A stretch of DNA of 64,000 nucleotides, from positions 930,001 through 994,000 of the forward strand of contig NZ_QFDM01000001.1 of assembly GCF_023702065.1 (NCBI RefSeq), in the 5' to 3' direction. Source of the DNA: Methanoculleus oceani. Lineage in GTDB: Archaea; Halobacteriota; Methanomicrobia; Methanomicrobiales; Methanoculleaceae. The translations under genes were made by a program, and so were the position numbers. The notes under the pieces are model-generated. The model was not told the origin of the DNA, made no database searches, and saw only the letters and a program-made list of their open reading frames with translations. Shown here piece by piece: positions 8,944 through 60,271 of the stretch; the stretch's first letter is position 1, and the number at the start of each line of letters is the position of its first letter.

Positions 8944-8988
8944 TCGCAAGAGCGGGACGTTTCCCGCTCCACTCAAAAAGTGGGCGGG

Positions 8989-12606: not shown

Positions 12607-12609
12607 CGC

Positions 12610-13506: not shown

Positions 13507-13747
13507 GATGATGTCTCCGATTGTTTGTTCCTCCTGATGGGTCAGTGGGGTCGTGCGTATACAACATTCTTTCGCTTGCTCCTCCCGCTCCGGGAGGGGC
13601 GGACCCCCTCCTCCGCGCAGGCGGCTTTGTGCTGTTTTTTTCCGGAGGATTGGGCCGGGATTTCGGCCCGGGCGAGCAGGAGGCCGTATCCTTTTTCCCC
13701 GGAGAGAGCCCACCTCTCTCATTCGCAGATGTGTGGAGAGCGATACC

Positions 13748-40720: not shown

Positions 40721-40745
40721 GAGATCATCGGCTGGTGGTAAAGAC

Positions 40746-42014
40746 ATGAAAATATCGATCGTTGGTTGCGGGTATGTCGGCACGGTTACCGGTGTTTGTT
40801 TTGCTGATTTTGGTCATGACATCATCTTTTACGATATCGATGGAAAGAAACTGGATCTCCTCGCCCGGGGGGAGGCGCCGATCTATGAACCCTCTCTCGA
40901 CGGCCTGATCCGGAAGAACCGGGAGCACCTTGTCACGACTCCGGATCTCACCGCTGCCGTGCGCGATACCGATATCACGTTCGTCTGTGTCGGCACCCCG
41001 TCCCGGCAGGACGGGTCCATCGACCTCGCTTACATCCTCTCGGCGGGTGCCACGATCGGAGAGGGCCTGCAAGAGATGCCGGGCTTCCATTCCATCATCG
41101 TCAAGAGCACCGTCTTCCCGGGGAGCACCGAGGGACCCGTTCGTTCGGTTATCGAGCAGGAGTCGGGGAAACAGGCGTTCGTCGATTTCGGCCTCGGATC
41201 GAATCCGGAGTTCCTCAGGGAGGGAAACGCTGTCCGCGACTTCTGCGAGCCCGATCGTATCGTGCTCGGTACCGGGGATACGAGGACGGCAAGGATGCTC
41301 GGGAACCTCTACGCCTCCTTCACCTGCCCGAAGATCGAGACCTCGATCCGGACGGCGGAGATGATCAAATACGCGAGCAACGCTTTCCTTGCCACGAAGA
41401 TCAGCTTTGCGAACGAGATCGGCAACCTTGCAAAGAAGCTCGGGATCGACTCGGAGGAGGTCTTTGCCGGGGTCGGGCTTGACAGCCGGATCGGTCCGGC
41501 CTTCTTCCGGACGGGAATCGGGTTTGGGGGTTCGTGTTTCCCAAAGGACGTCCGGGCCCTGATCGCCGGGGCGGGAGGCCACGGCGAGGATCTCCATGTC
41601 CTGCACGCGGCGTTGCGCGTCAACGAGGATCAACCCCTGAGGCTGTTCCGGCTGATACAGGCACGCATCCCTGACCTCAAAGGGCGGCGGATCGGCATCC
41701 TCGGTCTTGCCTTCAAGCCCGACACCGACGACGTCAGGGAGAGCCGGGCCATCCCGATCGTCAGGGCGCTGCTCGATGCGGGGGCCGATATCATTGCCTA
41801 CGACCCTCTTGCCATGGAGAACTTCGCCGCTCTCTTCCCGCAGATCGATTACGCGCCATCGGCCCGGGCCGTCCTCTCGGCCGACGCCGTCCTGATCACG
41901 ACCGAGTGGGAAGAGTTTGAGCACCTCGACTACAGCGGGGCGACCGTCATCGACGGGCGGAGGATTGCGGCTGCTTCCCGGACCGCGGAAATTTATGAGG
42001 GGGTTTGCTGGTGA
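40746..42014 (+). CDS. ugd: UDP-glucose (or related nucleotide-sugar) 6-dehydrogenase
   Basis: The enzyme oxidises the 6-hydroxyl of UDP-glucose in two NAD-dependent steps to UDP-glucuronate. The 422-residue protein has the NAD motif GCGYVG at 7-12, the GDH-type FVCVGTPS, and the catalytic cysteine in GFGGSCFPKD near residue 262. LGLAFKPDTDDVRES near 320 is typical of UDP-glucose/GDP-mannose dehydrogenases. The downstream uridylyltransferase gene makes UDP-glucose, which favours UDP-glucose over GDP-mannose or UDP-ManNAc. The stop overlaps the next start (GTGA). Confidence 0.88.
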   Translation: MKISIVGCGYVGTVTGVCFADFGHDIIFYDIDGKKLDLLARGEAPIYEPSLDGLIRKNREHLVTTPDLTAAVRDTDITFVCVGTPSRQDGSIDLAYILSAGATIGEGLQEMPGFHSIIVKSTVFPGSTEGPVRSVIEQESGKQAFVDFGLGSNPEFLREGNAVRDFCEPDRIVLGTGDTRTARMLGNLYASFTCPKIETSIRTAEMIKYASNAFLATKISFANEIGNLAKKLGIDSEEVFAGVGLDSRIGPAFFRTGIGFGGSCFPKDVRALIAGAGGHGEDLHVLHAALRVNEDQPLRLFRLIQARIPDLKGRRIGILGLAFKPDTDDVRESRAIPIVRALLDAGADIIAYDPLAMENFAALFPQIDYAPSARAVLSADAVLITTEWEEFEHLDYSGATVIDGRRIAAASRTAEIYEGVCW

Positions 42015-42946
42015 GGGAGGTCAGGAAGGCCGTCATCCCTGCAGCAGGCCTCGGCACCCGGTTCCTCCCGGCGACGAAGGCGATGCCCAAGGAGATGCTC
42101 CCGCTCATCGACCGGCCGGTGATCCAGTACGTGGTGGAAGAGGCGATCGACTCAGGGATTGACGACCTGATCATCATTACCGGGCGGGGGAAGCGGGCGA
42201 TAGAGGACTACTTCGACGACTCGCCCGAACTCGAGATGCACCTGCGCGATCACGGGAAACACGAGACGCTCAAGACGGTGCGTGACGTCTCTTCCCTCGT
42301 CGATATCCACTACATCCGGCAGAAGGAGCCGAGAGGACTTGGCGACGCTATCTTGCGTGCTGAAAAGCACATCGGCGACGAACCGTTTGCGGTCCTTCTC
42401 GGAGACGACATCATCAGGAACCATATCCCCTGTACGAAGCAGCTGATCGAGATCTACGGGCAGACCGGGCGTTCCGTCGTTGCGGTCGAGGCGGTGCCCC
42501 GCGAGAAGGTCAGCAGTTACGGGATCATCAGGGGCACCCCGGCGAGCCCGTCGCTCTACCGCATCGATGACATCATCGAAAAGCCCCGGATCGAGGATGC
42601 ACCCTCGAACATCGGTGCCATAGGACGCTATGTCTTCAGTCCCGAGATCTTTGAATGCCTGGGGCGTACGTCCCCGGGCGTCGGAGGCGAGATCCAGCTC
42701 ACCGACGCGATGCGGATCCTCCTCCAGTCTCAGGAGATCTATGCTCATGCGTTCCAGGGGCATAGATATGATACCGGGGATAAGGCGGGATACATCAAGG
42801 TGATCATCGACTTCGCGTTAGAGAACCCTGAGACGTGCGATGAGGTCGCCGAGCATCTTTCGTCTCTTGAGAGGCTCAAGCCGGAAGATCTCCGGGCCGA
42901 AAAATCCATATCCCAGGGGACTGTAGAGCCCTTTCAAAAATATTGA
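42011..42946 (+). CDS. galU: UTP-glucose-1-phosphate uridylyltransferase
   Basis: This enzyme makes UDP-glucose from UTP and glucose 1-phosphate. The 311-residue protein has the nucleotidyltransferase signature AAGLGTRFLPATKAMPKEMLPLID at the N-terminus, FAVLLGDDI in the centre, and GEIQLTDAM plus YDTGDKAGYI toward the end, all typical of GalU. The GTG start overlaps the preceding stop codon and has GAGGGGG seven bases upstream, so translation is coupled. A TTG start two codons earlier is an alternative. It supplies substrate to the dehydrogenase before it. Confidence 0.93.
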   Translation: MREVRKAVIPAAGLGTRFLPATKAMPKEMLPLIDRPVIQYVVEEAIDSGIDDLIIITGRGKRAIEDYFDDSPELEMHLRDHGKHETLKTVRDVSSLVDIHYIRQKEPRGLGDAILRAEKHIGDEPFAVLLGDDIIRNHIPCTKQLIEIYGQTGRSVVAVEAVPREKVSSYGIIRGTPASPSLYRIDDIIEKPRIEDAPSNIGAIGRYVFSPEIFECLGRTSPGVGGEIQLTDAMRILLQSQEIYAHAFQGHRYDTGDKAGYIKVIIDFALENPETCDEVAEHLSSLERLKPEDLRAEKSISQGTVEPFQKY

Positions 42947-42961
42947 TCGTAAGGAGAATTT

Positions 42962-43906
42962 ATGACAAAGATTGCCGTGATAGGAGGAGCGGGGTTCATC
43001 GGATCCCACATCGCCGAAGAGATCGCAAAAGAGCACGAGGTCGTCATCACCGACAACCTTGACGACTACTACTCGCCGGAGTTGAAACGGCGCAACCTCC
43101 AGACCCTCCTTGCAAATCCGAACGTGCGTTTCATCGAAGGCGATATCACCGACCTCGACCTCCTCCGGAGGGTGATAGACCCCGATGTGGAGTTCGTCTT
43201 CCATGAGGCAGCCCAGGCCGGCGTCAGGATCTCGGTCGAGGACCCGTTCAAACCGAACAACGTCAACGTGCTCGGGACCTTAAACGTCCTCAAGGCCTCC
43301 CTCGATGCCGGCGTGAAGCGGGTGATCAATGCTTCCTCCTCTTCGGTTTACGGGAAGGTGCAGTACCTGCCGTTCGATGAAACGCACCCCACCGTGCCGC
43401 TCTCTCCCTACGGAGTCTCGAAGCTCGCCGCCGAGCACTATTGCCGGGTCTTTTACGAGGTCTACGGCCTCCCGACAGTCTCGCTCCGGTATTTCACGGT
43501 TTACGGCCCCAGGATGCGCCCTGACCTCGCGATATCCATCTTCACCAAAAAGTTGCTTGCAAACGAGCCGATCACGGTTTTTGGCGACGGCAACCAGACC
43601 CGCGACTTCACCTACATCGACGATATCGTCCGGGTGAACCGGAGGCTGCTCGAGACGGACGCCGCCGACGGCCGCGTGATGAATGTCGGCGGCGGCCATC
43701 GGATTACGGTGAACGACCTGATCGCCCATCTCAGAGAGATAACCGGGAGTGAGTCTGAGGTGGTGTACTCCAACAGGCAGAAGGGCGATGCGGAGCATAC
43801 GCTGGCGGACACCTCTCTTGCGAGGAAACTGGTTGGATACAGGCCCGAGGTTCCTATCGGGGAAGGCCTGAGCAGATTTGCCAGGTGGTATATGCAGAAT
43901 CTTTGA
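42962..43906 (+). CDS. NAD-dependent nucleotide-sugar epimerase (SDR family)
   Basis: The 314-residue extended SDR protein has the Rossmann motif GGAGFIGSH at 8-16 and the active-site Tyr 150/Lys 154 in SPYGVSK, with Ser in INASSSSVYG. LRYFTVYGPRMRPDLAI and FTYIDDIV are typical of UDP-glucose and UDP-glucuronate 4-epimerases. Beside ugd and galU, conversion of UDP-glucuronate to UDP-galacturonate is the simplest reading, but UDP-glucose or N-acetyl sugars are possible. It lies 15 bases after galU with AAGGAG near its start, so it closes this operon. Confidence 0.86.
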   Translation: MTKIAVIGGAGFIGSHIAEEIAKEHEVVITDNLDDYYSPELKRRNLQTLLANPNVRFIEGDITDLDLLRRVIDPDVEFVFHEAAQAGVRISVEDPFKPNNVNVLGTLNVLKASLDAGVKRVINASSSSVYGKVQYLPFDETHPTVPLSPYGVSKLAAEHYCRVFYEVYGLPTVSLRYFTVYGPRMRPDLAISIFTKKLLANEPITVFGDGNQTRDFTYIDDIVRVNRRLLETDAADGRVMNVGGGHRITVNDLIAHLREITGSESEVVYSNRQKGDAEHTLADTSLARKLVGYRPEVPIGEGLSRFARWYMQNL

Positions 43907-44075: not shown

Positions 44076-45230
44076 ATGAAACTATTAGTCTGCACGACAG
44101 AATACTATCCCTACGGTTCCGGAATTGCTAATGTTGCATATAATGTTGTTCGGCAGTTAGAAAAGAAGGGAGTCGAATGCACTGTCTGTTCTCCCACCGG
44201 ACCGGATATAACCATCGAACCGGTATCAGGATGCGGCAGACTCTCCCTGGTACATTACTGGTATAAAGTATCAAAATATTTCCAGAATCGGCAAGATCAG
44301 TATGATATAGCCTGGTTACACTATCCGTTGATGCTAAAATCAAATCCCTTCAAGAGGAGTTATGTAACCATTCATTCGACGGCGCACGGCATAAAATATC
44401 CTTTCTATCTAAAGCCATATCAAATCATTTCTGAGGCCCTTGAAAGGTACTGTCTGGATAAATTGGACGAAGATATTCCTTTTTCTTCAGTCAGCGACCA
44501 ATCAATTTTAGATCTAAGAGCAAGTGGATTTGATAAAAAGAATATCATAAAAATAATCAATGGGGTAGATCCCGGTTTATTTGGTTCTAATTACGAAAAA
44601 AATGAAATTCGAGCTAAGTATGGCTTGCCAACAGGATCAACAGTATTTCTCTCTGTGGGGAGATTAACATACCACAAAATGCCGTTCAGGATGATTGATT
44701 TATTCAAAAGAATTCAAAACTACAATAATGACGTTCTTCTGGTTGTTGTTGGGGGAGGTAAACTTTTACCGGAATTAGAAGCATACGCAAAAAAGAATGG
44801 CGTGCAGGTGAAGTTTTTGGGTTATGTTAAATCCGAAGAATTGCCTGGGATATACAGTTGCGCAGACTTTTTCTTCATGACCAGCAAGTATGAGGGAGGA
44901 GAACCCACTCTTACGGTAGCAGAGGCTATGGCGTCAGGTTTGCCGTGTATTGCTTCAAAAATACCAAATTTTAAGTTAGTCGAAGAGAACAATCTGGGAC
45001 TGCTGTTTCACCCTTCAAACGATGATATCGCTGAGTCCGAAATTCTCAATTACTTGAGTAATTATGACTCGAATTATTCTAAAGAGATCCAGAACTACGC
45101 CATAAAAAACTTTGATTGGGAGGTTCTTTCAAACAAATACTTTGAGGAATTTTGTAACGCTATTTCTAACGATCTACAACATGAGAGAAATCCTTCAGTG
45201 TCCTCTCAGTATCGATCGTTCAGCGGTTAG
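44076..45230 (+). CDS. Glycosyltransferase, GT4 type, with AT-rich composition
   Basis: The 384-residue enzyme starts MKLLVCTTEYYPYGSGIANVAYNVV and has INGVDPGLFG, VFLSVGRLTYHKMPFRMI and MTSKYEGGEPTLTVAEAMASGLPCI, which carries the E-x7-E motif. Its codons favour A and T (AAA, ATA, TTA, AAT), in contrast with the GC-rich genes around it, which suggests recent horizontal transfer. A GGGGGAATAAA stretch places a ribosome site before the ATG. Its own promoter may lie in the preceding 170 bases (GACTATAACG). Donor and acceptor are unknown. Confidence 0.87.
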   Translation: MKLLVCTTEYYPYGSGIANVAYNVVRQLEKKGVECTVCSPTGPDITIEPVSGCGRLSLVHYWYKVSKYFQNRQDQYDIAWLHYPLMLKSNPFKRSYVTIHSTAHGIKYPFYLKPYQIISEALERYCLDKLDEDIPFSSVSDQSILDLRASGFDKKNIIKIINGVDPGLFGSNYEKNEIRAKYGLPTGSTVFLSVGRLTYHKMPFRMIDLFKRIQNYNNDVLLVVVGGGKLLPELEAYAKKNGVQVKFLGYVKSEELPGIYSCADFFFMTSKYEGGEPTLTVAEAMASGLPCIASKIPNFKLVEENNLGLLFHPSNDDIAESEILNYLSNYDSNYSKEIQNYAIKNFDWEVLSNKYFEEFCNAISNDLQHERNPSVSSQYRSFSG

Positions 45231-45605: not shown

Positions 45606-46853
45606 ATGAACGTCGTTATTCTCGATGCGCATCGTGAGGGGGATGCAAGGATTGAGAGGCATACTAAATATCTTGTGGATCAGGGACTGAATATCTACAG
45701 GGTACACTATAACTATAAGAGCGATTCCGCAAAACCGGGAGCATTCTCCCGATACGGGGAGAAGGGGTTTAGAATAAATATATCGATCCTTCAGGGGAAG
45801 ATCAGGACCCTGTATTTCCTCGGATACTGTTTAAGGCGGAAGATGCTGAAAGACTGCCTTGAAGCATTGGAGGTACTCGGCTTCGATCCCGCGCAGCCGT
45901 CTGTTATCCATGTTCATGACCCCCAGTTGTTGCCGCTGGCCGGAATGCTGGTTAAAGGCGGCCTGCAGAACTCCAGGGTCGTCTATGACAGGCATGAGGT
46001 TTACGAGGTATGGAAACAGTACCTGGGTATTTCTACGCCGGCTTTCTACGAGGGCCTCGGTAAGAACGTTATCTCCGGGGCAGTTGCCGTCTCCGAACAC
46101 CATATCGATACGGTCCAGAGGTTGTTCCCGGCATCATGCGTTGTGGCGGTTCCGAATTATCCGTTGCCTGAGGATTATGACGATGAGGTGATAAACAGAA
46201 AGATTGACCCCGCAAATTCGGAGGCGCCCATAAATGCCGTATATGTAGGAAGCCTCAATAACATGGCCGATAGAGATGTTTCCCTCCTTCTTAACATTGC
46301 AGATGCAGCCATTCGGTCGTATGATAACGTGACCTTCTTCGTCGGTGGAACCTCCCTGGATGAAGACTCGAAGGCGAAGATCGACGCTCTCGCCGGAAAG
46401 CATGACGGCAGGTTCCGGTTTTTCGGGCGTGTTCCCCGGGAGGAGACCGTCGAACTTACCGAGAAGGCTCACATCGGCTTCCTTCTCATACGACCGGACG
46501 TGAGGTACTGGGTAAGAACCTCCCCCAACAAGATCTATGAATACCTGATATGCGGCACCGTCCCCATCGTCAGGGCCGATGTCGACCATGCCGATCTCCT
46601 TAGATCGTGTTCGCTGATATTCGATCGTTCCGACGACGATGAGGCTATCGTGAGCGCTGTCCTGGACCTGCTCGGCGATCCCGGGAGACTCAGGAAGCTC
46701 ATGACGGCCGCCAGGGAGTTAGGCGTCACATTCACCTGGGAGTCCGTAGCATGCCGATATATCGGACTCTATAAGACGTTGCTGCAATCCGGGGCAGCCC
46801 CCGACCAATCCGCCCGGGGAATTCCCCTCGACATGTACGGGTGCGAGACTTAA
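45606..46853 (+). CDS. Glycosyltransferase, GT4 type
   Basis: The 415-residue protein begins MNVVILDAHREGDARIERHTKYL and has VIHVHDPQLLPLAGML, VVYDRHEVYEVW, AVYVGSLNNMADRD and a C-terminal nucleotide-binding region around SPNKIYEYLICGTVPIVRADVDHADLL. The E in KIYEY stands where GT4 enzymes have their second glutamate, and the motif is not canonical. A TATA-like box lies about 35 bases upstream. It probably adds a sugar to the same surface glycan as its neighbours. The C-terminal 20 residues are of no known family. Confidence 0.82.
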   Translation: MNVVILDAHREGDARIERHTKYLVDQGLNIYRVHYNYKSDSAKPGAFSRYGEKGFRINISILQGKIRTLYFLGYCLRRKMLKDCLEALEVLGFDPAQPSVIHVHDPQLLPLAGMLVKGGLQNSRVVYDRHEVYEVWKQYLGISTPAFYEGLGKNVISGAVAVSEHHIDTVQRLFPASCVVAVPNYPLPEDYDDEVINRKIDPANSEAPINAVYVGSLNNMADRDVSLLLNIADAAIRSYDNVTFFVGGTSLDEDSKAKIDALAGKHDGRFRFFGRVPREETVELTEKAHIGFLLIRPDVRYWVRTSPNKIYEYLICGTVPIVRADVDHADLLRSCSLIFDRSDDDEAIVSAVLDLLGDPGRLRKLMTAARELGVTFTWESVACRYIGLYKTLLQSGAAPDQSARGIPLDMYGCET

Positions 46854-47034: not shown

Positions 47035-48030
47035 TCAGGCTCCCCGGTTCGTGAGGAGCATCTCCCTTATCTTATAGGATACCAGCATCGGTTTTGAGAG
47101 CAGGACAAGGTTTGAATGGATCGGCAGATGCTCGGCCCCGAACTTCGCCTTGTACCGGAACCGGGGGTTGCCCGGTTCCAGTTTCTGCCGCCCGGAAGAT
47201 AACTTTTCATACCCGTTCTTCCACGCCCAGTTAATGCTCTCCCACATGATGTGGTAGGAGGGGGTATACCGGTTCGGAAGGTCCCGGTTGATGGCCAGGT
47301 AATTGCCATAGTATATCTTCCTGGCCGGGTCCAGGAGTGCCAGGGATCCGCCGGCAAAGAGATCGTTCCGGGTTAAGGCCGTAACCCTTATTTCGTCCGG
47401 GAACTGCTCCAGGAGCTTCTCAAAGAAGGCAAGAGGCAGGATCTTGCCGTTGATATGCGTCATGTTCCCGGAATAGTACCGGTAAAAGTCATCGAGTTCG
47501 TCCGGATGGTTTATCTCCGAGACCTCGAATCCGTCGTTCTCAAATGTGCGGAGGGCCTGTTTCGTACGCTTCGAGAGCCCGGCCCATATGGCATCGGGGG
47601 GGCTGGATCTCAGGTCCGTCATCATATGGCCTGTATCCTCGCCGGAGACATGGGTGAACCTGATCCCGTCCAGCAGAGCGGGGTTGCACGTATTGAAGTG
47701 CAGGAACGAGTACTTCTTCGCAAAGAGCGACAGGATCTCATTGAAATGGTCGGCATTGAACGTATCGTCCAGCACAATTCCGTTCATCTCGGAGTGGGGG
47801 ATACTGACCAGCCCCAGGAAATTCAGCGCCGACCGTTCGGCCCAGGGACTTATTCCGACGACTTCCTGTTCGTTGAGGATGAGATAATATCGCAAATTCG
47901 AATGAAAAATGTCCTCGAGAACCTGTTTCCACCTTAAACTGTGAAATGGTGTTCCTCCTCCTGATTGGTTGTTAAATTCCTCCCATTGGTCTGCAGTGTC
48001 CTCGGATAACAACTCAATCGAATATGCCAT
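47035..48030 (-). CDS. FemAB/GNAT-like acyltransferase, paralogue 1
   Basis: The 331-residue protein has the N-terminal WEEFNNQSGGGTPFHSLRWKQVLE and the C-terminal HIMWESINWAWKNGYEKLSSGRQKLEPGNPRFRYKAKFG, a layout I associate with FemAB/GNAT proteins (two GNAT folds). FemAB enzymes transfer amino acids from aminoacyl-tRNA to cell-wall amines. Other relatives make extracellular polymers. Paralogues 2 and 3 (below) share the same two segments. It runs against them, with its start facing the start of paralogue 2, so the spacer may hold both promoters. The substrate is unknown. Confidence 0.8.
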   Translation of the reverse strand: MAYSIELLSEDTADQWEEFNNQSGGGTPFHSLRWKQVLEDIFHSNLRYYLILNEQEVVGISPWAERSALNFLGLVSIPHSEMNGIVLDDTFNADHFNEILSLFAKKYSFLHFNTCNPALLDGIRFTHVSGEDTGHMMTDLRSSPPDAIWAGLSKRTKQALRTFENDGFEVSEINHPDELDDFYRYYSGNMTHINGKILPLAFFEKLLEQFPDEIRVTALTRNDLFAGGSLALLDPARKIYYGNYLAINRDLPNRYTPSYHIMWESINWAWKNGYEKLSSGRQKLEPGNPRFRYKAKFGAEHLPIHSNLVLLSKPMLVSYKIREMLLTNRGA

Positions 48031-48256
48031 ATGGGGATACCTACCCGGGCAGCGGTATTAATACTTCGTATCATCGGGCGACGGATATGGCATACCGGGC
48101 GAATACCCGGAAGCATGCAGGAGGAAGGCCCTGATAACGGGCGTTGATCCCGGCACAGAGAGATCGGGCCTGCATCATCGCGGCCGGAAGAGCATCGGGA
48201 TGGGCCTTACGGGATGATAGAAAACGTTAATGCCGGTGTCGCTTAAGGTGCCCTTC

Positions 48257-49279
48257 ATGACGTATTCCATCGAACTGCTATCACAGAGCAATGCTCACCG
48301 GTGGGAAGAATTTAATTGCCGGTGCAGGGAAGGGACGCCGTTTCACAGCATACGTTGGAAGAACATACTCGAAGATGTGCTGAAATTGCGATTACGCTAC
48401 TATCTTATCCTGGATGGCGGGAAGGTCGTCGGCATATGCCCCTTTGTCAAACGGTCGATGAAACTCTTTCGAGGCTTAAGCAGTATACCCCGATCCGAGT
48501 ACAGCAACATCCTGCTGGACGATACGTTCAATGCCGATCATATCAGCGAAATTCTGTCCCTCTTCGCGAATAAATATTCGTTTTTGTCCTTTAATACGTA
48601 CGATTCGGCCTTACCTGACAGGATCGGGTACGTTAATGTCCCGAACGAGGATGGATGCAATATACTACTGGACCTGGATCAGACTCCGCCCGAGACGATA
48701 TGGGAGGAGATCCTCTCGAAGGACGAGCGATACAAAGTCAGTAGATTTGAAAAAGGAGGCTTTACGGTCCAGGAGGTAGGAAAAGGGCAGGACATGGAAA
48801 AATTTTATCAGTATTACAGGGAAAACCTGAGCCACATAAAAGGGTATATCCTGCCGTTTACCTTCTTCGAGAGGCTTCTGGACTCATTTTCTCCGGACGA
48901 AGTGAGGGTTGCAATCGTGACGAACAATGGCGTATTCGCCGGCGGAAACCTGACGTTGCTGGACCCTGCCCGAAAAACCGCTTACTTCCAGTACCTTGCA
49001 CTCAACCGGGACCTCCCGAACAAGTACTCTCCCAGTTACTACCTTTCGTGGGAGGGGATCAACTGGGCGTGGGAGAACGGCTATGAGAAGATATCGTTCG
49101 GACGGGAGAAGCTGGATAATCCTCGTGTCCGAAGCAAAGCAAAGTTCGGGGCCGAACCCGTGCCAATCCATTCGAGGGTAGTCCTGCTTTCGAAGACGGC
49201 TTCCCTGCTCTACCAGTTGAGACAGACCGTTTCAGGAAGCCGGGAGGCTGGTGCCCCCTCAACGGGCCGGGTGTCCTGA
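48257..49279 (+). CDS. FemAB/GNAT-like acyltransferase, paralogue 2
   Basis: The 340-residue protein begins MTYSIELLSQSNAHRWEEFN and shares with its paralogues REGTPFHSIRWKNILEDVL, LLDDTFNADHISEILSLF and GYEKISFGREKLDNPRVRSKAKFGAE. The start ATG has AAGGTG seven bases upstream, the same leader sequence as before paralogue 3, which supports the choice over an ATG nine codons earlier. The stop is directly followed by the ATG of the next gene, so both are probably one operon. Transfer of an aminoacyl or acyl group to a surface polymer is inferred from the FemAB family. Confidence 0.8.
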   Translation: MTYSIELLSQSNAHRWEEFNCRCREGTPFHSIRWKNILEDVLKLRLRYYLILDGGKVVGICPFVKRSMKLFRGLSSIPRSEYSNILLDDTFNADHISEILSLFANKYSFLSFNTYDSALPDRIGYVNVPNEDGCNILLDLDQTPPETIWEEILSKDERYKVSRFEKGGFTVQEVGKGQDMEKFYQYYRENLSHIKGYILPFTFFERLLDSFSPDEVRVAIVTNNGVFAGGNLTLLDPARKTAYFQYLALNRDLPNKYSPSYYLSWEGINWAWENGYEKISFGREKLDNPRVRSKAKFGAEPVPIHSRVVLLSKTASLLYQLRQTVSGSREAGAPSTGRVS

Positions 49280-50329
49280 ATGGCGCGAACCGAGGTAAGG
49301 GCGCTGGAGTCCGGCGAACTGACGGCTTGGGACGAATTGGTCGCCGGCTCTCCTCAGGGGACGGTCTTCCACACGAGCGACTGGTTGCAGAAGACTGCTT
49401 CATCCCTGGACCGGACACTGGTGATACTTGGGTGCTACGAGGATGAGACATTGATCGGGGGTTGCCCCCTTCTCCTGTCGAATCCGTACGGATTGCTCAG
49501 AATCGCCTCTTCCGCGGCGCTGCTGGCCCCATACGGGGGGATAGTGACAGCCGGCATAGAAAGCACCAAACGGAGAGAGAAGGAGTTGCATGCCGAAAAG
49601 GTCATCGCATCCATCCGCGATCACATTGTCCGGAAAAGATTCGACCACGTGGACCTGGTGAATTCCCCGGGACTGGGGGATATTCGAGGATTCACCAGGA
49701 ACGGGTGGGGTGCCAGGGTATACTACACGTATATGCTTCCGATCGACGGGGACGTGTTCGAACACATTTCCAAAAATGCACGGCGAAGTATTCGTAAAGC
49801 CGAGAAACTGGGTATTACCGCGACAGAGCATTTCGACCCCGAGACATACTGGGAACTCACGAAAAACACCTTTGCAAAGCAGAATTCGCAACCGCCGTTC
49901 TCCAAGAAACACCTCGTGAACATGCTGGATACGATCCGGAAGAAGAACCTGGGCGAGATGTGGGTCGCGAGGACTCCTTCGGGAGAGGTCGCTGCGGCTG
50001 AAGTCATCATCTGCGACCGGAAGACTGCTCATCGCTGGTCTGCTGCCTCCTCGGAAGAGCACCTGAACACAGGGGCGGCCTCGCTTCTTCTCGGCGAGGT
50101 TATCACTCACTTCGCGGATCGGAATTGTTCATCAGTCAATTTGATGGGAGGAAACATGGCCCGCCTGAGTGCATTTGTCTCCACTTTCAACCCGGACCTT
50201 GTTCCTTACTACGGCGTTGAACTGTCCGGGCCCAGGTACAACATCATAAACGGACTCAACAATCGCGTGAAGGGCGTGGCCTCCCGCCTCACCTCAAGAG
50301 CCGGCACAGGATCCCCGCAACGGAGGTGA
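49280..50329 (+). CDS. FemAB/GNAT-like acyltransferase, divergent member
   Basis: The 349-residue protein is a more distant FemAB/GNAT member: WDELVAGSPQGTVFHTSDWLQ at the start, ISKNARRSIRKAEKLGITATEH in the middle (the typical NARRSIRKAEK motif of the first GNAT lobe) and NLMGGNMARLSAFVSTFNPDLVPYYGVEL near the end. It begins at the base after the stop of paralogue 2 and so is likely co-translated. Its different sequence from the three paralogues suggests a different acceptor or donor. Substrate unknown. Confidence 0.82.
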   Translation: MARTEVRALESGELTAWDELVAGSPQGTVFHTSDWLQKTASSLDRTLVILGCYEDETLIGGCPLLLSNPYGLLRIASSAALLAPYGGIVTAGIESTKRREKELHAEKVIASIRDHIVRKRFDHVDLVNSPGLGDIRGFTRNGWGARVYYTYMLPIDGDVFEHISKNARRSIRKAEKLGITATEHFDPETYWELTKNTFAKQNSQPPFSKKHLVNMLDTIRKKNLGEMWVARTPSGEVAAAEVIICDRKTAHRWSAASSEEHLNTGAASLLLGEVITHFADRNCSSVNLMGGNMARLSAFVSTFNPDLVPYYGVELSGPRYNIINGLNNRVKGVASRLTSRAGTGSPQRR

Positions 50330-50440
50330 CCGGGTTTTACCGCGGCGCTTCGTTGCTGGGCTGCATGGGCCGCATCCGTTCGAAGGACAGACCAGAGGTA
50401 GTGGAAAGTATTATCAGTGTTGTTCGGCAAGGTGCCCCTC

Positions 50441-51454
50441 ATGGCTTATTCCATTGAGCTGTTGTCCGAAGGGAGCATACACCAATGGGAAGAGTTTAAC
50501 GATCGATCCCGGGAGGGCACACCGTTTCACAGCATACGCTGGAAGCACATCCTCGAGGATGTGCTGAAACTGCGATTACGCTACTATCTTATCCTGGATG
50601 GCGGGAAGGTCGTTGGCATATGCCCGTTCATTGAACAGTCGGTAGGCTTTTTCCGGGGCCTGAACAGCCTGCCTCACTCCGAATTCAACAACATGATCCT
50701 GGATGATTCGTTTGATGCCGGCCGCCTTGATGAGATTCTGTCGCTCTTCGCAGAAGATTACTCGTTCCTGCACTTCAACGTCTACCATCCGGACATTATA
50801 GCGGCAATAAACCGCGACAATTTCATTGTTGAGCATACGGGCAATATGATGCTGGACCTGAAACAGAAACCTCCGGAGGCCATATGGAGCACATTTTCGA
50901 GGAACATGCGGTACAACATCCAGATATTCGAAAAGAGAGGTTTTACGATTCAGGAGGTGCACGAACCATCGGAAATCAAAAGATTCTATCATTACTATGT
51001 AGAAAACTTAACACACATCAACGGGGATATCCTGCCGTTCTCCTTCTTTGAGAGACTTATGGAACGTTTCCCGGACGAAGTGAGGATCGCGACCCTGACG
51101 AACGGCGACGTATTTGCAGGCGGATGGCTGACACTGGCATCCCCGGATCGAACAACCGCCTATTACCAGTACCTGGCCCTGAACCGGGACCTTCCGAACA
51201 GGTATACCCCCACGTATCCTATTTACTGGGACCTGGTCAACTGGGCGTGGGATAACGGCTATGAAAAACTCTCCTTCGGGCGGCAGAAACTGGAACCGGG
51301 AAACCCCCGCCTGCAGGGCAAGGCAAAATTCGGGGCCGAGCACGTACCGATTCATGCAAGATTGGTCCCGCTATCGAGGACAGTATCTCTTGCTTACCAG
51401 TTGAAACGAAAACTCTCCGGGCTTCAACCTGCTGATGCCCCCACTGCAGGGTAG
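50441..51454 (+). CDS. FemAB/GNAT-like acyltransferase, paralogue 3
   Basis: The 337-residue protein is closely related to paralogue 2. Its region coding for HILEDVLKLRLRYYLILDG is almost identical in DNA to that of paralogue 2, while the rest diverges. It has GTPFHSIRWKHILEDV and GYEKLSFGRQKLEPGNPRLQGKAKFGAE. The ATG follows AAGGTGCCCCTC, nearly the same leader as paralogue 2, with AAGGTG as ribosome site. No substrate can be inferred beyond the FemAB family. It is the last of the four-gene set before the Ntn-hydrolase-like gene. Confidence 0.8.
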   Translation: MAYSIELLSEGSIHQWEEFNDRSREGTPFHSIRWKHILEDVLKLRLRYYLILDGGKVVGICPFIEQSVGFFRGLNSLPHSEFNNMILDDSFDAGRLDEILSLFAEDYSFLHFNVYHPDIIAAINRDNFIVEHTGNMMLDLKQKPPEAIWSTFSRNMRYNIQIFEKRGFTIQEVHEPSEIKRFYHYYVENLTHINGDILPFSFFERLMERFPDEVRIATLTNGDVFAGGWLTLASPDRTTAYYQYLALNRDLPNRYTPTYPIYWDLVNWAWDNGYEKLSFGRQKLEPGNPRLQGKAKFGAEHVPIHARLVPLSRTVSLAYQLKRKLSGLQPADAPTAG

Positions 51455-51772
51455 GTTGACCGGCACAGAGCAGTTGCCGACCGCCGTTTTATCGCCCTTC
51501 CTGGCAGTCGGACTGCCTGGTTTGACGGAGATCGCACCGGTGCGGGGCATGCCTGCAGGGCCGTTGTGAGAGGGCGGATTTTTTGCTTGAGGGTTCTACG
51601 CGGGCTCCTCATTTTTACGAGTTCTCTCTGGAATTCGGATAAACCTTGATTTTGCAGAAGAAGTAAATCCCCCCGTGTTCCCGGCGTAATGTTAATATAC
51701 TCTCAAGGATTTGACGATGACAGGTTTCTTCTCACCGCAAGCACACACCGACAAATCACCTGGAGCATATAC
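51455..51772. other. Intergenic promoter region of the Ntn-type gene
   Basis: A TATA-like GTTAATATACTC at about 51688 lies roughly 80 bases before the chosen ATG and would allow a leader of about 50 bases. There is also a short imperfect palindrome CAGTCGGACTG near 51505. No gene is recognised. Confidence 0.4.
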
Positions 51773-53560
51773 ATGGAACAAGGAAGTCCCGTCCTGATGA
51801 AGGCGCTGCTCGCGGCCATCTTCGTCCTTATCGCCCTCATGGCACTGATTGCCTTCTATCCCGGCTTTCAGCAGTTGCCGTTAACGGACAAGGAGGTTAC
51901 GATATCCGGCACCCTTGTCTCCGAGGACCGGGACCCCGGCACGATATACATCCTCGCGCTCTACCCGGTCGTTCTTCAGAAGATACGCGAGGTGGAAACG
52001 GAGGTGCAGCCATACGCATCGCGGCACGTTGTCGCGTATACAACCATCAGCGCCCCGGGCTCCTATAGCATCAGGGTTCCCAAACCCGGCGAATACTTCC
52101 TCTATGCCTGGAAAGATACGAACGGTGACGGGGGAATCGATCATGAAGATTACCTGGAACCCGCCGGCTGGTACCGGACCGACGATTACCTGCTGCCGAC
52201 GAGCGTTGACGTGACCGACGGCAACGACGTTTCCGGGATTGACCTGACACTGCTCGCCCCGACTCCTTACCCGGATGAGGAGTTGAGTGTCAGCCGGGGG
52301 AGCGGCGGGGGAACCCTGAAGACGATAAAAGGGTATCCGGTCCTGCAACTCCGGGGGACCGACGAAGAGCGGGCGTATGCCCAGGGATATCTTGTCGGTC
52401 CGCAGATCAGGGACTGGGTCGAGTATGTCCTGATCGAGTACTATGCCCGATCTCCGTCGCTCTATGAAAACGACCTCCTTCCCTTCATCCGGGACAACTT
52501 CTCAGCAAACGATCCCTATATTCCCGTTGCCGATGCGATGATCCAGGGCATGCGGGACTCCGAAACCAGCATGCGCATCGACGTCCTCAAGCGGGATATC
52601 ACGCGCGACGATATTCTGGCGATAAATGCTCTTTACTGTATGGTACATCTGAGAGATGCCATACTGAACGAGGAGAAGGGGGAACCGGGCAGCCCGATGT
52701 GTTCAAACGCAGTCGTCTGGGGCAACCTGACCCGGAACGACGAACTTTCCGGTGGGTTGATCCACGGCAAGAACATGGACGGAGAGAACGACCTGCGGAA
52801 GGTCACGGTGAACACCCTCCTCATCGTCGCAACCGAACCCGAAGAGGGAAGCGGCAAGATGCGGGTCGTGGGTATCGACTGGCCCGGCTTCTACGGGACA
52901 TACAACGCCATGAACGAGGAAGGCCTGATCCTGGTCACGCATTCCGTCGGATACGGCCCGAACTTCAGTGCAACGGACCTGCTAGAATACTCCACGCTCT
53001 ATATGGAAACCCTGCAGCACTGCCGGACCATCCCCGAGGCGGAAGCCTACTGGATGTCGCGGGACATGACCCGGACGGGAGGCTGGAATACCGCAGTCTC
53101 GGTGCCGTACAAAACGGATCCCAACGAGACCCCGTCGGTGACGTTCGAGTCCGACTCCTATGGCATGGCGGTACGGAGACCCGGCGACGTTCCGCCGACC
53201 GGCATCCCCGCAATCCTGACGACCAACAGCTTCTATACCTATAACGCCAGACCGGACGCAGAAGCAACAGCCGACGGAGGGCCGGGATCTATTCTGCCGA
53301 CCCATTACCGGTACATAGCAATGAACGATACCCTGAACCGGTTCATAAACGAAGGCCGCAGCATCGGCACGCCCGAGATGATAGAGATCCTGCGAGCGGC
53401 ATCGAACTCCACCAGTTACAGCGGTGCCACCGAGTACAGCTATATCGGGTACCCCGACACCATGTCCTTTGCCGTTGCACGGGAGGATCTGGAACGGAAG
53501 ATTCTTGATGCGTCGTACGCGGAGTACACGGCATTCTCCTTTGAGGAGGTCTTCCAGTGA
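51773..53560 (+). CDS. Membrane-anchored Ntn-type acyltransferase/hydrolase (peptidase C45-like)
   Basis: The 595-residue protein has one membrane helix (LLAAIFVLIALMALIAFYPG). A beta-domain with a Ca-binding-like loop follows (KDTNGDGGIDHED, near residue 120), then a catalytic part that resembles the C45 family (acyl-CoA:6-aminopenicillanate acyltransferase) and related Ntn hydrolases. The likely nucleophile is Cys 310 in PMCSNAVVWG, which autoproteolysis would expose as a new N-terminus. HGKNMDGEND further on resembles the conserved post-nucleophile region. Such enzymes form or cleave amides. GGAG seven bases before this ATG supports the start. The stop overlaps the next gene, which implies joint function. 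Confidence 0.78.
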   Translation: MEQGSPVLMKALLAAIFVLIALMALIAFYPGFQQLPLTDKEVTISGTLVSEDRDPGTIYILALYPVVLQKIREVETEVQPYASRHVVAYTTISAPGSYSIRVPKPGEYFLYAWKDTNGDGGIDHEDYLEPAGWYRTDDYLLPTSVDVTDGNDVSGIDLTLLAPTPYPDEELSVSRGSGGGTLKTIKGYPVLQLRGTDEERAYAQGYLVGPQIRDWVEYVLIEYYARSPSLYENDLLPFIRDNFSANDPYIPVADAMIQGMRDSETSMRIDVLKRDITRDDILAINALYCMVHLRDAILNEEKGEPGSPMCSNAVVWGNLTRNDELSGGLIHGKNMDGENDLRKVTVNTLLIVATEPEEGSGKMRVVGIDWPGFYGTYNAMNEEGLILVTHSVGYGPNFSATDLLEYSTLYMETLQHCRTIPEAEAYWMSRDMTRTGGWNTAVSVPYKTDPNETPSVTFESDSYGMAVRRPGDVPPTGIPAILTTNSFYTYNARPDAEATADGGPGSILPTHYRYIAMNDTLNRFINEGRSIGTPEMIEILRAASNSTSYSGATEYSYIGYPDTMSFAVAREDLERKILDASYAEYTAFSFEEVFQ

Positions 53561-54756
53561 CAACCATCTCAGGGACAGACGTGTCCGAAAGCAATCGCCG
53601 GAGGCCGAACAGGAGCCATGATATGTTAGCGGAACATCAATTGAATGCTGCACTGACCGGAAAGTTATATTCGCCGACTCAGGGTTACAGGGGAGAGGCA
53701 TCCCCGAGCATGATGGATCTGCTCCGGCAGGATGGGGAGATATGGGACCTGTTCACCAGACAGGAGGAGTACGGGAGCTGCGATCAGGACCGGCACGATC
53801 GGTTTCCATACTATCGGAGCCGCCACCGGGACATATGCGTGCCCCGGGCATCGCAGGTGCTGGTGGAGAACGGCTTTCATTGCGAATACCCGGAATCGCA
53901 GCCGTTTGCAATCTGTCTTACGCACGACATCGACACTGTGTACCGGCCTCTCCGTTCCAAAGGTTATGAGATCGCAAAAGCGCTGAAAGACGGGAATTTT
54001 AAGCGTGCCGGCAACACCGCTCTGCAAATGCGCTCGAAGAAACTCCCCGCGTGGAACTTCAAAGAGATCGCCGACCTCGAGGAGTCCCACGGCGCATGCT
54101 CCAGCTTCTACTTCCTTGCCCCGGAGAAGGGGGCACGGGAGTACGCATACGCGCTTGAGGATGTTGAAGGGGAGATGTGCACGCTCCTTGATGGGGGGTG
54201 GGAGATCGGCCTGCACGGAGGTTGCGAGGCCTACCTGAACCCGGAGAGGCTGCAGGCGGAGAAACGGCGCCTGGAGAAGATCCTTAACCGGCAGATAGCC
54301 GGGTGCAGAAACCATTTTCTCAAGTTCCGGGTGCCGGAGACCTGGGAACTGCTGGAGGATGCAGGGTTCCTGTATGACACCACCCTGGGGTATTCGGACT
54401 GTGTCGGGTTTCGGAACGGCATGTGCCACCCTTTTTTGCCTTTCAACCTGAATACCGGCCGGGAGATGGATATCATGGAGATCCCGCTCACGATCATGGA
54501 CCGGACATTGCTCCATTACATGTCGTTGAACCCGGAGCAGGCCTGGGCCCAGATAGAACGCCTCCTCGCCACTGTCGAGCGGCTTCACGGCGTGATCACC
54601 GTACTCTGGCATAACGAATTCATGCTCGGCACGACGCTCCGGTTCTACCGGAAGATCCTGAAGTATGGGCACGATAAGGGCGCCTGGATGACGAGCGGTG
54701 AGGAGATCGCGAAGTGGTGGAAGAAAGAGGGGTTGCGGGCTCCTCCGACTGAGTGA
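53557..54756 (+). CDS. Polysaccharide deacetylase-like protein
   Basis: The 399-residue protein starts with a GTG that overlaps the preceding stop (GTGA), with GAGGAGG eight bases upstream, so translation is coupled to the Ntn-type gene. It has AICLTHDIDTVYRP (a NodB-like motif 1 with two aspartates and a histidine), GLHGGCEAY (second metal histidine), KFRVPETWELLEDAGFLYDTTLGY and the late LWHNEFM. These are features of the NodB/polysaccharide deacetylase fold. No signal peptide is visible, so it may act in the cytoplasm on lipid-linked or nucleotide sugars. An N-deacetylated sugar could be the amine acceptor for the neighbouring acyltransferases (inference). Confidence 0.8.
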   Translation: MTTISGTDVSESNRRRPNRSHDMLAEHQLNAALTGKLYSPTQGYRGEASPSMMDLLRQDGEIWDLFTRQEEYGSCDQDRHDRFPYYRSRHRDICVPRASQVLVENGFHCEYPESQPFAICLTHDIDTVYRPLRSKGYEIAKALKDGNFKRAGNTALQMRSKKLPAWNFKEIADLEESHGACSSFYFLAPEKGAREYAYALEDVEGEMCTLLDGGWEIGLHGGCEAYLNPERLQAEKRRLEKILNRQIAGCRNHFLKFRVPETWELLEDAGFLYDTTLGYSDCVGFRNGMCHPFLPFNLNTGREMDIMEIPLTIMDRTLLHYMSLNPEQAWAQIERLLATVERLHGVITVLWHNEFMLGTTLRFYRKILKYGHDKGAWMTSGEEIAKWWKKEGLRAPPTE

Positions 54757-54873: not shown

Positions 54874-56364
54874 TCATCGGAACAACCCCAGCCGCTCCAT
54901 CCACTCAACGTGTCCCGGGGGGACGGAACCCCGGATCATCCTCAGGACCTCCTTGCGGATCAGGGCATCCGTGAAGAAGATCAGGAGGTAGTAGGCCGCC
55001 GCGGTCACTCCCGCGACCCCGAGCAGGAGCAGGAACGGGACCCCCGCAAACTTCGCAATTATGAGGGGGAGGGATACACCGATGCTGAGCAGCAGGTGCC
55101 GGGCCAGGCTGAGGACGCTGTCCCGGTACCCGGCCTCAGACTCCCGTATGAGGTAGGCGCTCTTCGCCCCCCAGATGAAAACGCCGCCGATGGAAAAGAG
55201 CGTGAGCGCTATAATGGGATCGCCGAAGGTGCCGCCGATGTAGAAGAGGAGCGTCAATGCGCACAGGGTCAGGATCTCGAAGAAGAAAAAAGCCCTCTGC
55301 TTGTCGAGAACGCCGAAGAGGGATGTAATGGGTGAGATGATGAATACGGCGAAGATCCATGGAGCGATAATCATCGCATAGGTGCCTGCTGTGAGCCAGT
55401 TTGCACCGAAGACGAAGGTGAAGAGGTCCTGGGCGAGGATCACAAAGACAACGAAAGGGAAAATGCCGATGGAGATCAGCCTCGTGTGGACCTCACGGAC
55501 CACGTTCTTTACGTCCCCGGTCTGGATTCTTTCCTCGCTCGCTTTCTGGAAGAACACCTGTGTGATCGATTTCCCTACCATCGCCATGGGCAACTTTACT
55601 GCCATTATGGCAAGGGCATAGTATCCGACAACAGTCGGGTTGAAGAAGTAGGCAAGCATGAAGGCCGGCAGTTCCCAGGATGCGCTGTTGGCAAGGCTGC
55701 CGAGAGACGCATAAAGTGAGAAATGCTTATATCGAGCGGCAAGAGCCATCATTCGCTCTCCTGTAACGGTCTTTAAGAGGGCAGTGTCCTCTTTCAATCC
55801 CCGGAGCAGGGAGAGAGTGGCAAGACCCGTCCCTATCACCGAACCGAGTATAAGGCCGAGCGGGGAGGCATGGGCCAGGCCGCCTCCGATCTGGATCACC
55901 CGCGTTGAGACCGTGTTCGTTACGATGCCCCTGGCGATGACGCCGTACCTCACCTTCCGGGAGAGCCATTCATTCAGGACCACGATGAGGCTGCTGAAGA
56001 TGATATAGAGCGGCAGCCATACAAAGTAGTCGGCGATCAGCGGCGTATTGAAGACGCTTCCGAACCAGTCTGCAAACCCGACGAAGACGACGCCCACCCC
56101 GGTAGAGATACCCAGCAGACAGACGACACACACCCCAAGGATGTTCACGGAATCTTCGTCTCGCTCCGTCACCATGATCGCGAAGTGATAGGAGAGGTTG
56201 GAGACGACCAGTATCACCGCACCTATGGAGAGGAAGAGCTGGTTGACCCCGAAGAATTCCGGTGGATAGAGGCGCGTAACCACGGGAATGAGGATTATGG
56301 CAACGATCTGGGCAATCACGGTGCCCGACGCCATCTTAAGGAGATTGCTGATGAAGCTCGGCAT
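54874..56364 (-). CDS. Flippase (Wzx-like, MOP superfamily), second copy
   Basis: The 496-residue protein has 12-14 membrane spans. It begins MPSFISNLLKMASGTVIAQIVAIILIPVVTRLYPPEFFG, the classic start of O-antigen/teichoic-acid type flippases. It would move lipid-linked glycans across the membrane. It shows little residue similarity to the flippase at 27.9 kb. A TATA element lies about 37 bases upstream of the ATG. Its gene converges with the deacetylase gene. Confidence 0.88.
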   Translation of the reverse strand: MPSFISNLLKMASGTVIAQIVAIILIPVVTRLYPPEFFGVNQLFLSIGAVILVVSNLSYHFAIMVTERDEDSVNILGVCVVCLLGISTGVGVVFVGFADWFGSVFNTPLIADYFVWLPLYIIFSSLIVVLNEWLSRKVRYGVIARGIVTNTVSTRVIQIGGGLAHASPLGLILGSVIGTGLATLSLLRGLKEDTALLKTVTGERMMALAARYKHFSLYASLGSLANSASWELPAFMLAYFFNPTVVGYYALAIMAVKLPMAMVGKSITQVFFQKASEERIQTGDVKNVVREVHTRLISIGIFPFVVFVILAQDLFTFVFGANWLTAGTYAMIIAPWIFAVFIISPITSLFGVLDKQRAFFFFEILTLCALTLLFYIGGTFGDPIIALTLFSIGGVFIWGAKSAYLIRESEAGYRDSVLSLARHLLLSIGVSLPLIIAKFAGVPFLLLLGVAGVTAAAYYLLIFFTDALIRKEVLRMIRGSVPPGHVEWMERLGLFR

Positions 56365-58149: not shown

Positions 58150-60081
58150 TCAGTGCAGAAAATGGTAGACTTCGACGGCGGCGTTTGAGTAAACCTTATC
58201 CTCCGTAGACAATCTGCCTGTCATGTTCAGGACATTCTCTTCCGTGGGCCGGTAGGGCTTAAGGCTTTTGTCCGGATCAATCTCCGCTTCATCCAGTAGC
58301 TCATCCGGCCCGAGGAGGAGCCCTCCATGCATGAACTGGTGATTCAGGAGAACGATATAGCCCGTCTTCTCCGAGATCCTCAGATCTTCCGGCATCATGC
58401 GAGCGGAATAGTAAGGCAGGTTCAGACTTTCAGATTCGTTGATCTTCTTTCTCCCGAAGAATCGCAACGTATAGTAGTCCGAGTACAGAGGGGATCCGCT
58501 GGGCACCGTCGTTAACACGCGATCGAACCCGGCTACCTCGTCCTGGTCGAAAGAGTACCGTTTGTAGCTTGGCTCATCCCTGACGAGCCCGAGAGAACCG
58601 ATGCCGTACAGGAGGATCAGGGCAATGAGTACTACCCCGATCCACCTTGATGACTGCCTCACGGCGGACAGGTACCGGGTGAGAAGGTATATCCCGACAC
58701 CCATAACGACGGCAAGAATCGGCAGAAACAGAATTGCGAACCGATCGATTCGGAGGATTGCCGCGAACTGGAAGATCACGGTAAGGATATTCGGAACGTT
58801 CAGGAGAACTGCTAACAGTCCTAAAAGGCCAAATACAGCCGAATATTTCGGCTGCTGCTTCCATATAAGATAAATCGCCCCGATCAATGCGAAGAACACG
58901 ACGAACAGGCCGTCAATCTGGCTAACCAGGAAATTCCAGCCGTTGTACACCACGTCGGTGAAAACAACCTCCTGGTATAGCGATAACTCGGTACGCGGGA
59001 GCAGTTCCCTCACGAAGGAGTAGGCTACGAAAGTCCAGTAACAGGCAAACAGGGATATGGGGACCATCAGGAAGACCGGATCCACGTGCTTCCTTTCCTG
59101 GATGGCCCATCCGAGGACGAAGAGGAGCCCGATCAGGATGATGATCATGGGCATGGAGATCTGGTGCGTCAACAGAATGAAGACGGCCATGATCACGGCG
59201 GGGATCTTTCTGGCGGCGGGCCTGACGATGGCATGCTCCGCGTCGGCCTTCGGGCCTGTCATGGTGTAGAGCAGGTACAGGAGGATGAGAAACCCGACAT
59301 ATGCCATGATCCTCGTCACCATGTACGTCCCGTAGAATATGACGTCGGCGTTCATTGCGTACGCAAGAACCGCCAGAAGGGCGATCTGTTCGTTACGGAA
59401 TATGCTGTTGACCAGATAGTACAGGAACAGCACCGTTGAAGCGAAGATCAGGCCCGTGGTGACAAAGAGGGCTGTCTGGATATCCATGCCCAGCATCTGC
59501 GAAGATTGAGCCACAAATATGTGGTATAGGGGGAAGTAGGTGTATGTTCCGACATCGGGCGGGATGACGTGCCCTGACAGATACGTGACCGTGGCCATGT
59601 AACTGTGCGACAGGATATCCGTTGTCCCGAAGTACAGAGCCGGCCGCAGGGTGTAGCTGTAGATCGTGATTGCGAGCGTGAGCATGGTCTCAAGGAGCAC
59701 CGTCACCGGGCGTAGCCGCCAGGACAGTATCTGGACGAAGATTGTCGTGTACAGGATGAGTGCCGGAAACAGGCCCAGTTCGAAATCGATGTCCGTTACG
59801 AGCAGGACCAGGACGGCAAGCGTGGAGTACAGCAGGAAGAATACCGGAGACAAGAGAAGGCTATACCGAAATACCGCCGCTTTCTCTGACAGGTCGGGAT
59901 CCCTTTTCTTTATGAGAATGAATACGGCACACGCGATGATCGCAGGAACCGCTATGATTGAACCGTTGACCAGATAGCTCATTCTGTCGATATAGACACA
60001 GAAGATGCAGCCGACGATGTAGAAAGAGAGCGTCAGGTACGGGAGGATGTTGGCCAGCCTCTCAAGCGATCGGATCTTCAT
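58150..60081 (-). CDS. Large polytopic membrane protein, possible GT-C glycosyltransferase
   Basis: The 643-residue protein has a long series of membrane spans (about 13) and a soluble C-terminal region. The first large loop contains RPALYFGTTDILSHSY and the second LSGHVIPPDVGTYTYFPLYH, which resembles the extracytosolic loops of GT-C enzymes and archaeal DUF2206-like proteins, with an acidic residue after FGT. A role in lipid-linked glycan assembly is an inference. The start is the ATG before KIRSLERL, because the 52 codons upstream are Arg-rich without family resemblance. It is convergent with the preceding gene and on the same strand as the two beta-helix genes that follow to the right. 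Confidence 0.7.
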   Translation of the reverse strand: MKIRSLERLANILPYLTLSFYIVGCIFCVYIDRMSYLVNGSIIAVPAIIACAVFILIKKRDPDLSEKAAVFRYSLLLSPVFFLLYSTLAVLVLLVTDIDFELGLFPALILYTTIFVQILSWRLRPVTVLLETMLTLAITIYSYTLRPALYFGTTDILSHSYMATVTYLSGHVIPPDVGTYTYFPLYHIFVAQSSQMLGMDIQTALFVTTGLIFASTVLFLYYLVNSIFRNEQIALLAVLAYAMNADVIFYGTYMVTRIMAYVGFLILLYLLYTMTGPKADAEHAIVRPAARKIPAVIMAVFILLTHQISMPMIIILIGLLFVLGWAIQERKHVDPVFLMVPISLFACYWTFVAYSFVRELLPRTELSLYQEVVFTDVVYNGWNFLVSQIDGLFVVFFALIGAIYLIWKQQPKYSAVFGLLGLLAVLLNVPNILTVIFQFAAILRIDRFAILFLPILAVVMGVGIYLLTRYLSAVRQSSRWIGVVLIALILLYGIGSLGLVRDEPSYKRYSFDQDEVAGFDRVLTTVPSGSPLYSDYYTLRFFGRKKINESESLNLPYYSARMMPEDLRISEKTGYIVLLNHQFMHGGLLLGPDELLDEAEIDPDKSLKPYRPTEENVLNMTGRLSTEDKVYSNAAVEVYHFLH

Positions 60082-60271
60082 TTTCAGACCGAACCGCACT
60101 TCAACGCTCAAACCTAATAAAGTTAAGTTTGCGAACCGTCGGCGCCCCGGCGAAAGGGTGCTCCAGAATATTCTGCGTGCGGTCTGAGTAAGTTCTGTAT
60201 TGGCGGAAGGGGAGCAGCGGGTTATGCTGTCTCGCACACAGGGCCTGCCCCGTCCGGTGGCGCCTTTTCCT

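Follow-up and report, generated by a model that had tools for sequence, protein, structure and literature searches.

FemAB enzymes are best known from murein cross-bridges, and murein is not expected in a Methanoculleus-type archaeon. Secreted proteins of Porphyromonas and Tannerella are anchored by a uronic-acid sugar; in the proposed route to it, VimE takes off an acetyl group and VimA attaches serine or glycine, and exchanging vimA exchanged the amino acid on this linking sugar, serine versus glycine (PMC7468200). VimA resembles the FemAB family of XrtA/PEP-CTERM regions (TIGR03019), and Veith et al. speculated that bacterial PEP-CTERM/exosortase systems use the same linkage (PMC7468200). 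Further from surface anchoring, the FemX-like protein Orf11 glycylates streptothrisamine from Gly-tRNA, as described in a review that also covers the role of Lys305 in FemX (PMC12945691); streptothrisamine is an amino sugar intermediate, going by the title of the primary paper cited there. In archaea, the N-glycans of Methanococcus contain a uronic acid with threonine at its position 6, along with a 2,3-diacetamido glucuronic acid (PMC2952790). A search of the open-access literature found no published link between FemAB proteins and archaeosortases, or between FemAB proteins and the surface glycans of Methanoculleus.

The window analysed here is a 64,000-nucleotide stretch of Methanoculleus oceani DNA. 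Within it, six open reading frames between 47035 and 54756 were confirmed at the positions given by the initial annotation, which had read them as a pathway that decorates a surface glycan: four FemAB-like proteins, an Ntn-hydrolase-like protein and a deacetylase. Our preferred reading keeps a smaller core: an amino sugar of a surface glycan would be de-N-acetylated in the cytoplasm and then aminoacylated, a reading to which we assign a probability of roughly 60%. The parts of the locus are ordinary, while their combination and distribution are unusual. The genome (2.46 Mb) holds seven FemAB-type genes, four of which are packed into 4.4 kb at this locus, a clustering beyond chance.

The six genes are flanked by glycosyltransferases upstream and a flippase downstream. 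Two GT4 glycosyltransferase genes on the plus strand (44076-45230 and 45606-46853; PF00534, the second below the cut-off) belong to a type that recurs around the module in relatives. They are preceded, at 40701-43906 on the same strand, by nucleotide-sugar genes for an AglM-like UDP-sugar dehydrogenase (TIGR03026, 434.7 bits), GalU (TIGR01099, 380.8 bits), both above their cut-offs, and an epimerase/dehydratase (PF01370). Downstream lies a MOP-family flippase (54874-56364, minus strand; PF13440, 72.6 bits), a genus-conserved neighbour found as the same cluster in 10 loci. Flippases in the plural had been described as flanking the set; only this one was found, and the other large polytopic membrane protein (58150-60237, minus strand), a conserved neighbour in 8 loci (cluster c4), matched no family in Pfam and NCBIfam scans.

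All four FemAB-like proteins score above the PF13480 cut-off, and 47035-48030 and 49280-50329 also above that of PF02388. Three are close paralogues, with 56-62% mutual identity, here called type A: 47035-48030 on the minus strand (PF13480, 36.9 bits; PF02388, 32.9 bits), 48257-49279 on the plus strand (the frame opens at 48230, and the ATG at 48257 fits the homologues), and 50441-51454 on the plus strand (the frame opens with the GTG at 50417; PF13480, 42.3 bits; 62% identical to 48257-49279). Type A matches TIGR03019 over nearly the full length at ~86 bits (86 bits for 47035-48030), below the cut-off of 260. The fourth protein, type B (49280-50329, plus strand; PF13480, 57.4 bits), begins immediately after the stop codon of 48257-49279, and BLASTP aligns it with the paralogues at only ~22-25% identity over 50-60 residues, in agreement with the earlier description of three close paralogues and one divergent protein.

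The FemAB/GNAT-like identity, for which a fold check had been called for, was borne out with an AlphaFold2 model of 48257-49279 (pLDDT 89.8). The top Foldseek match was FemX (E = 8e-17), with Z = 24 over ~305 residues that form two GNAT domains in a FemX-like arrangement. FemX, FemA and Sba18/Sbb17 (solved with streptothrisamine) match at Z 23-24, and all solved structures in this range are aminoacyl transferases or are named as aminoacyl-tRNA-dependent. The next folds, MprF and the acyl-CoA tandem GNATs, reach Z of at most ~18. These comparisons bear on another reading, in which the FemAB-fold proteins are tandem GNATs that re-acylate the freed amine from CoA. It would suit the naming of PF13480 as a GNAT acetyltransferase domain, the matches to the tandem GNATs 2wpx and mycothiol synthase at Z ~16-17, and a type B protein without the FemX lysine. 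However, the acyl-CoA enzymes among the matches listed fall 5-7 Z units short of FemX, FemA and Sba18/Sbb17, the lysine is kept in type A, and the profile search returned only FemX/FemA-type proteins (FemX at E = 5e-14), Sba18/Sbb17 and one lysyl-PG-synthase-type domain. Acylation from CoA is, in our view, rather unlikely.

A closer look at the lysine separates the two types. In the three type A proteins (47035, 48257 and 50441), a lysine aligns with the FK of Sbb17, and on the basis of this alignment we equate it with FemX Lys305; it is residue 294 in the 340-residue protein that starts at 48257. Type B has valine at this position, and its relatives have isoleucine, valine, threonine, tyrosine or others. 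Proteins with and without the lysine are encoded side by side in the window (47035-51454) and in two archaeal exosortase loci (L065 and L152), and such a pair may consist of a catalytic enzyme and a non-canonical partner. In a quick tree, the three close paralogues form a clade, type A, that is largely confined to Methanoculleus and its nearest relatives, and type B falls into a broader clade; in Methanoregula and others, members of that broader clade directly adjoin the deacetylase. The tree has no row for a proven VimA because none of the 148 genomes sampled from the phylum of one Bacteroidetes MAG (L134) reached the VimE cut-off of 440 bits. The divergence of type B had thus been seen correctly, but not its place in the lineage that most often stands beside the deacetylase. 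Another two FemAB genes of this genome (L068, G000:C1:216000-235999; 8377-10593 and 12490-13623) lie as a pair near a CapA-like gene (PF09587), and CapA-like genes also repeatedly adjoin window-type loci in relatives.

The deacetylase (53713-54756, plus strand) has as its best NCBIfam match the VimE family (NF053580 deacetylase_VimE; E = 7e-34, 117 bits against a cut-off of 440), and its profile matches solved polysaccharide deacetylases weakly. His123, Asp124, Asp126, His220, Arg251, His253 and His352 are invariant across 13 relatives, a CE4-like set of the metal-binding and catalytic type, and the motifs HD.D, HG and G.R.H, among others, are common to them all. The identification as a deacetylase-like protein is upheld by this match and these residues. 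The protein is predicted to have neither a signal peptide nor a transmembrane segment. The frame opens with a GTG at 53557, but most homologues begin near residues 52-53, which correspond to the ATGs at 53710 and 53713; judged by these alignments, one of the two is probably the start, an assignment that is not certain because two relatives (L055 and L057) have no ATG there. Translational coupling to the preceding Ntn-hydrolase-like gene, as originally proposed, is doubtful, since the 4-base overlap needs the GTG, and the likely start leaves ~150 bp between the genes. Partial second copies accompany the full-length deacetylase in two Methanoculleus-type genomes (L056, 6008-6828, in G092; L057, 6712-7320, in G058).

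To follow the pair beyond this genome, bacterial and archaeal genomes were scanned with the deacetylase alignment, which gave 76 loci from Methanomicrobia, Thermoplasmatota, Bacillota and Chloroflexota, among others; many come from related species, and the loci are not independent. Across these 76 loci, FemAB genes per 10 kb of flank numbered 1.12, 0.61, 0.38, 0.05 and 0 in successive 2-kb bins from the deacetylase, against an own-genome background of 7 in 2.46 Mb. The gap between the two genes is at most 500 bp at 20 loci, and a FemAB gene is present in the examined flank at 35 and absent from it at 41. Within the order, all 10 genomes with a type A locus have FemAB and deacetylase genes adjacent or nearly so, and in the genomes sampled around the Bacteroidetes MAG, FemAB is next door at 4 of ~20 deacetylase loci. 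The linkage is far above chance expectation. The initial annotation had staked its reading on the set not proving to be one whose genes never occur together; the pair proved to be neighbours in many archaea and in several bacterial phyla. The deacetylase does not always depend on FemAB, because, in addition to the 41 loci, the second VimE-like deacetylase of the same genome (C2:433833, locus L067) has no FemAB gene within ~10 kb. Genes for asparagine-synthase-like proteins and DegT aminotransferases are found repeatedly in the vicinity of the pair at some distant archaeal loci, which is reminiscent of the Wbp/Vim pathway. Many Methanosarcina loci (L085, L087, L089-L096, L098 and L099) lack a FemAB gene and carry this deacetylase with a DegT-type aminotransferase at a distance of ~3 kb.

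Surface-polysaccharide islands gather glycan-modifying genes. The locus might accordingly hold separate modifying genes that share a region but no pathway, and the FemAB copy number (2-4) and the neighbouring genes do vary among relatives. Nevertheless, a link between FemAB and deacetylase that crosses phyla and decays with distance within the flanks makes a loose gathering hardly credible.

The remaining gene of the set encodes the Ntn-hydrolase-like protein (51773-53560, plus strand; the frame opens at 51689). The 51689-53560 frame matches the C45 subfamily NF040521 at 62 bits (E = 5e-17), below the cut-off of 85, and a Pfam scan matched it to no family; all seven members of the C45 family that were scanned match NF040521. 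Searches of PDB sequences with the protein and its profile gave nothing significant, and a structure prediction from three sequences had a pLDDT of 31. An invariant cysteine and an HGKNMD motif characterise the family. This cysteine is the nucleophile candidate of the initial annotation, numbered Cys338 in the 623-residue frame and Cys310 only with the plausible start at ATG 51773. The membrane anchor assigned earlier is also seen, as a single predicted N-terminal transmembrane segment. Because of this one segment, the catalytic part is predicted to lie outside, on the opposite side of the membrane from the FemAB proteins and deacetylase, which are predicted to be soluble and cytoplasmic.

This topology weighs against the fuller pathway that had been proposed, in which the C45 enzyme regularly takes part and swaps acyl groups on the sugar that the others modify. 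The gene does lie between FemAB and deacetylase in four species (G000, G063, G072 and L075), and its position is therefore not unique to the window genome. It is absent, however, from 10 of the 14 related loci (those of 10 genomes of the order together with L071, L073, L074 and L075), and in 13 genomes of the order, the window genome among them, its relatives form a stand-alone family at other places; most of these genomes lack the type A FemAB clade. The own-genome paralogue (L147, G000:C2:812500-832400; 9298-11106) carries an AAGC signal like that of a lipoprotein and lies next to housekeeping genes, recognised by eye from sequence as a KsgA-like methyltransferase and an L21e-like ribosomal protein. 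A pathway with the C45 enzyme as a regular step is thus quite improbable, and we treat the protein as an accessory, not as part of the core.

The core is read as deacetylation followed by aminoacylation because of the FemAB-deacetylase linkage and the analogy to VimE and VimA, with their N-aminoacyl anchor sugar. The idea that the deacetylase frees an amine for FemAB to modify was already part of the first reading and is supported here. Gene identity, the FemAB fold, the conservation of catalytic-type residues and the gene linkage are observed; the chemistry, the donor, the order of steps, the substrate and the destination we infer. In the proposed scheme, the deacetylase would act on an amino sugar linked to a nucleotide or a lipid and strip off its N-acetyl group; at least one FemAB-fold enzyme would then load the exposed amine with an amino acid, for which aminoacyl-tRNA is the most likely donor. 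Type B, whose lineage adjoins the deacetylase in other organisms, is for that reason the strongest candidate to attach the first residue. The three type A proteins, with their FemX-type lysine, might attach later residues or modify different sugars. Assembly and export of the glycan would fall to the glycosyltransferases and the flippase, and the C45 protein could, for example, trim or transfer acyl groups on exported material. Counting against this reading are the deacetylase and type A scores below the VimE and TIGR03019 cut-offs, the type B protein without a Lys305 equivalent, the failure to recognise a complete Wbp gene set in the annotated ~31.6-63.9 kb, the acyl-CoA users among the tandem GNATs, and the deacetylase loci, L067 included, with FemAB-free flanks.

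An exosortase-linked version of the FemAB-deacetylase module was missed in the initial annotation. Among 100 genomes of the order, a long VimE-like deacetylase frame (532-569 codons) occurs in six (G007, G014, G031, G037, G049 and G055), and a strong EpsH-type exosortase occurs in these six and no others. Were the genomes independent, the chance of this overlap would be ~8e-10; its true weight is much smaller because five of the six belong to one family, and the length class was noticed post hoc. FemAB, deacetylase and exosortase genes lie within ~3-12 kb of each other in five of these genomes and on different contigs in G014, and the exosortase of G037 passes TIGR04178. These loci also pair a FemAB protein without the lysine, beside the deacetylase, with one that has it. 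Several archaeal exosortase loci (L065/L150, L066, L151, L152 and L153) hold a VimE-like deacetylase and one to three FemAB genes, some with ATP-grasp, PIG-L and MraY-like genes, and look like the archaeal counterpart of XrtA/PEP-CTERM regions.

It is conceivable that the window locus itself makes such a linking sugar, an aminoacyl sugar that accepts the C-termini of surface proteins through an archaeosortase-like enzyme, as the Vim sugar does in Porphyromonas. The six-for-six overlap, the close spacing in five genomes and the parallel speculation of Veith et al. (PMC7468200) all point this way. Near the window locus, however, no exosortase or sortase gene was recognised in the annotated part (~31.6-63.9 kb). 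In the whole genome, PF09721 matches a single protein, an ArtA-like archaeosortase encoded on a different contig, and haloarchaeal ArtA substrates are described as lipid-anchored (PMC7157517). Co-occurrence with an archaeosortase was rejected as evidence, since an ArtA-like gene is present in 97 of the 100 genomes, with or without the module, and is uninformative on it. We consider a linking sugar at this locus unlikely, and retain the aminoacylated surface glycan as the preferred product.

A broader proposal is offered tentatively, and we would not count on it: many archaea and several bacterial phyla may share a module that de-N-acetylates and aminoacylates amino sugars by means of FemAB proteins of two sorts, one carrying the lysine and one lacking it; the module would make the exosortase acceptor sugar in one archaeal branch and an aminoacylated surface glycan in Methanoculleus. 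If true, FemAB enzymes would serve murein-free archaea in the aminoacylation of surface sugars, along a route akin to the protein-anchoring pathway of Porphyromonas. The module would then identify what exosortases and some archaeosortases join proteins to, and the exosortase-linked archaeal loci would be a concrete candidate source for the exosortase acceptor.

Of the known systems, the Wbp/Vim pathway shares with the window locus a deacetylase, with VimE as its best NCBIfam match, beside a FemAB/GNAT-type protein, and in some archaeal relatives an asparagine-synthase-like gene near the pair. The pair itself had been noted before, but not this resemblance. The differences are a bit score for the window deacetylase far below the VimE equivalog cut-off, 2-4 FemAB genes of two types in window-type loci instead of the one in Vim, and a type IX secretion sortase that is absent. 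WbpB/D/E-type genes were not recognised beside the locus either; the only possible Wbp counterparts recognised around it were a UDP-sugar dehydrogenase and an epimerase/dehydratase. By analogy, the window pair may work like the Vim pair, although both partners fall short of the VimE and TIGR03019 equivalog cut-offs and we do not claim membership. TIGR03019 itself compares well in the nearly full-length match of type A and in the pair's closeness to an exosortase in five archaeal genomes, and differs in that type A scores below its 260-bit cut-off and no exosortase was recognised near the window locus. FemX/FemA and Sba18/Sbb17 share the double-GNAT fold and, with type A, the FemX-type lysine, while their identity to the window protein is ~15% and a murein acceptor would be out of place here. 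Methanococcus N-glycans differ in that the threonine is taken to sit on the carboxyl of the uronic acid, its enzyme being unassigned in the 2010 review; they nonetheless provide an archaeal surface glycan that combines an amino acid with a sugar of the VimE type (PMC2952790).
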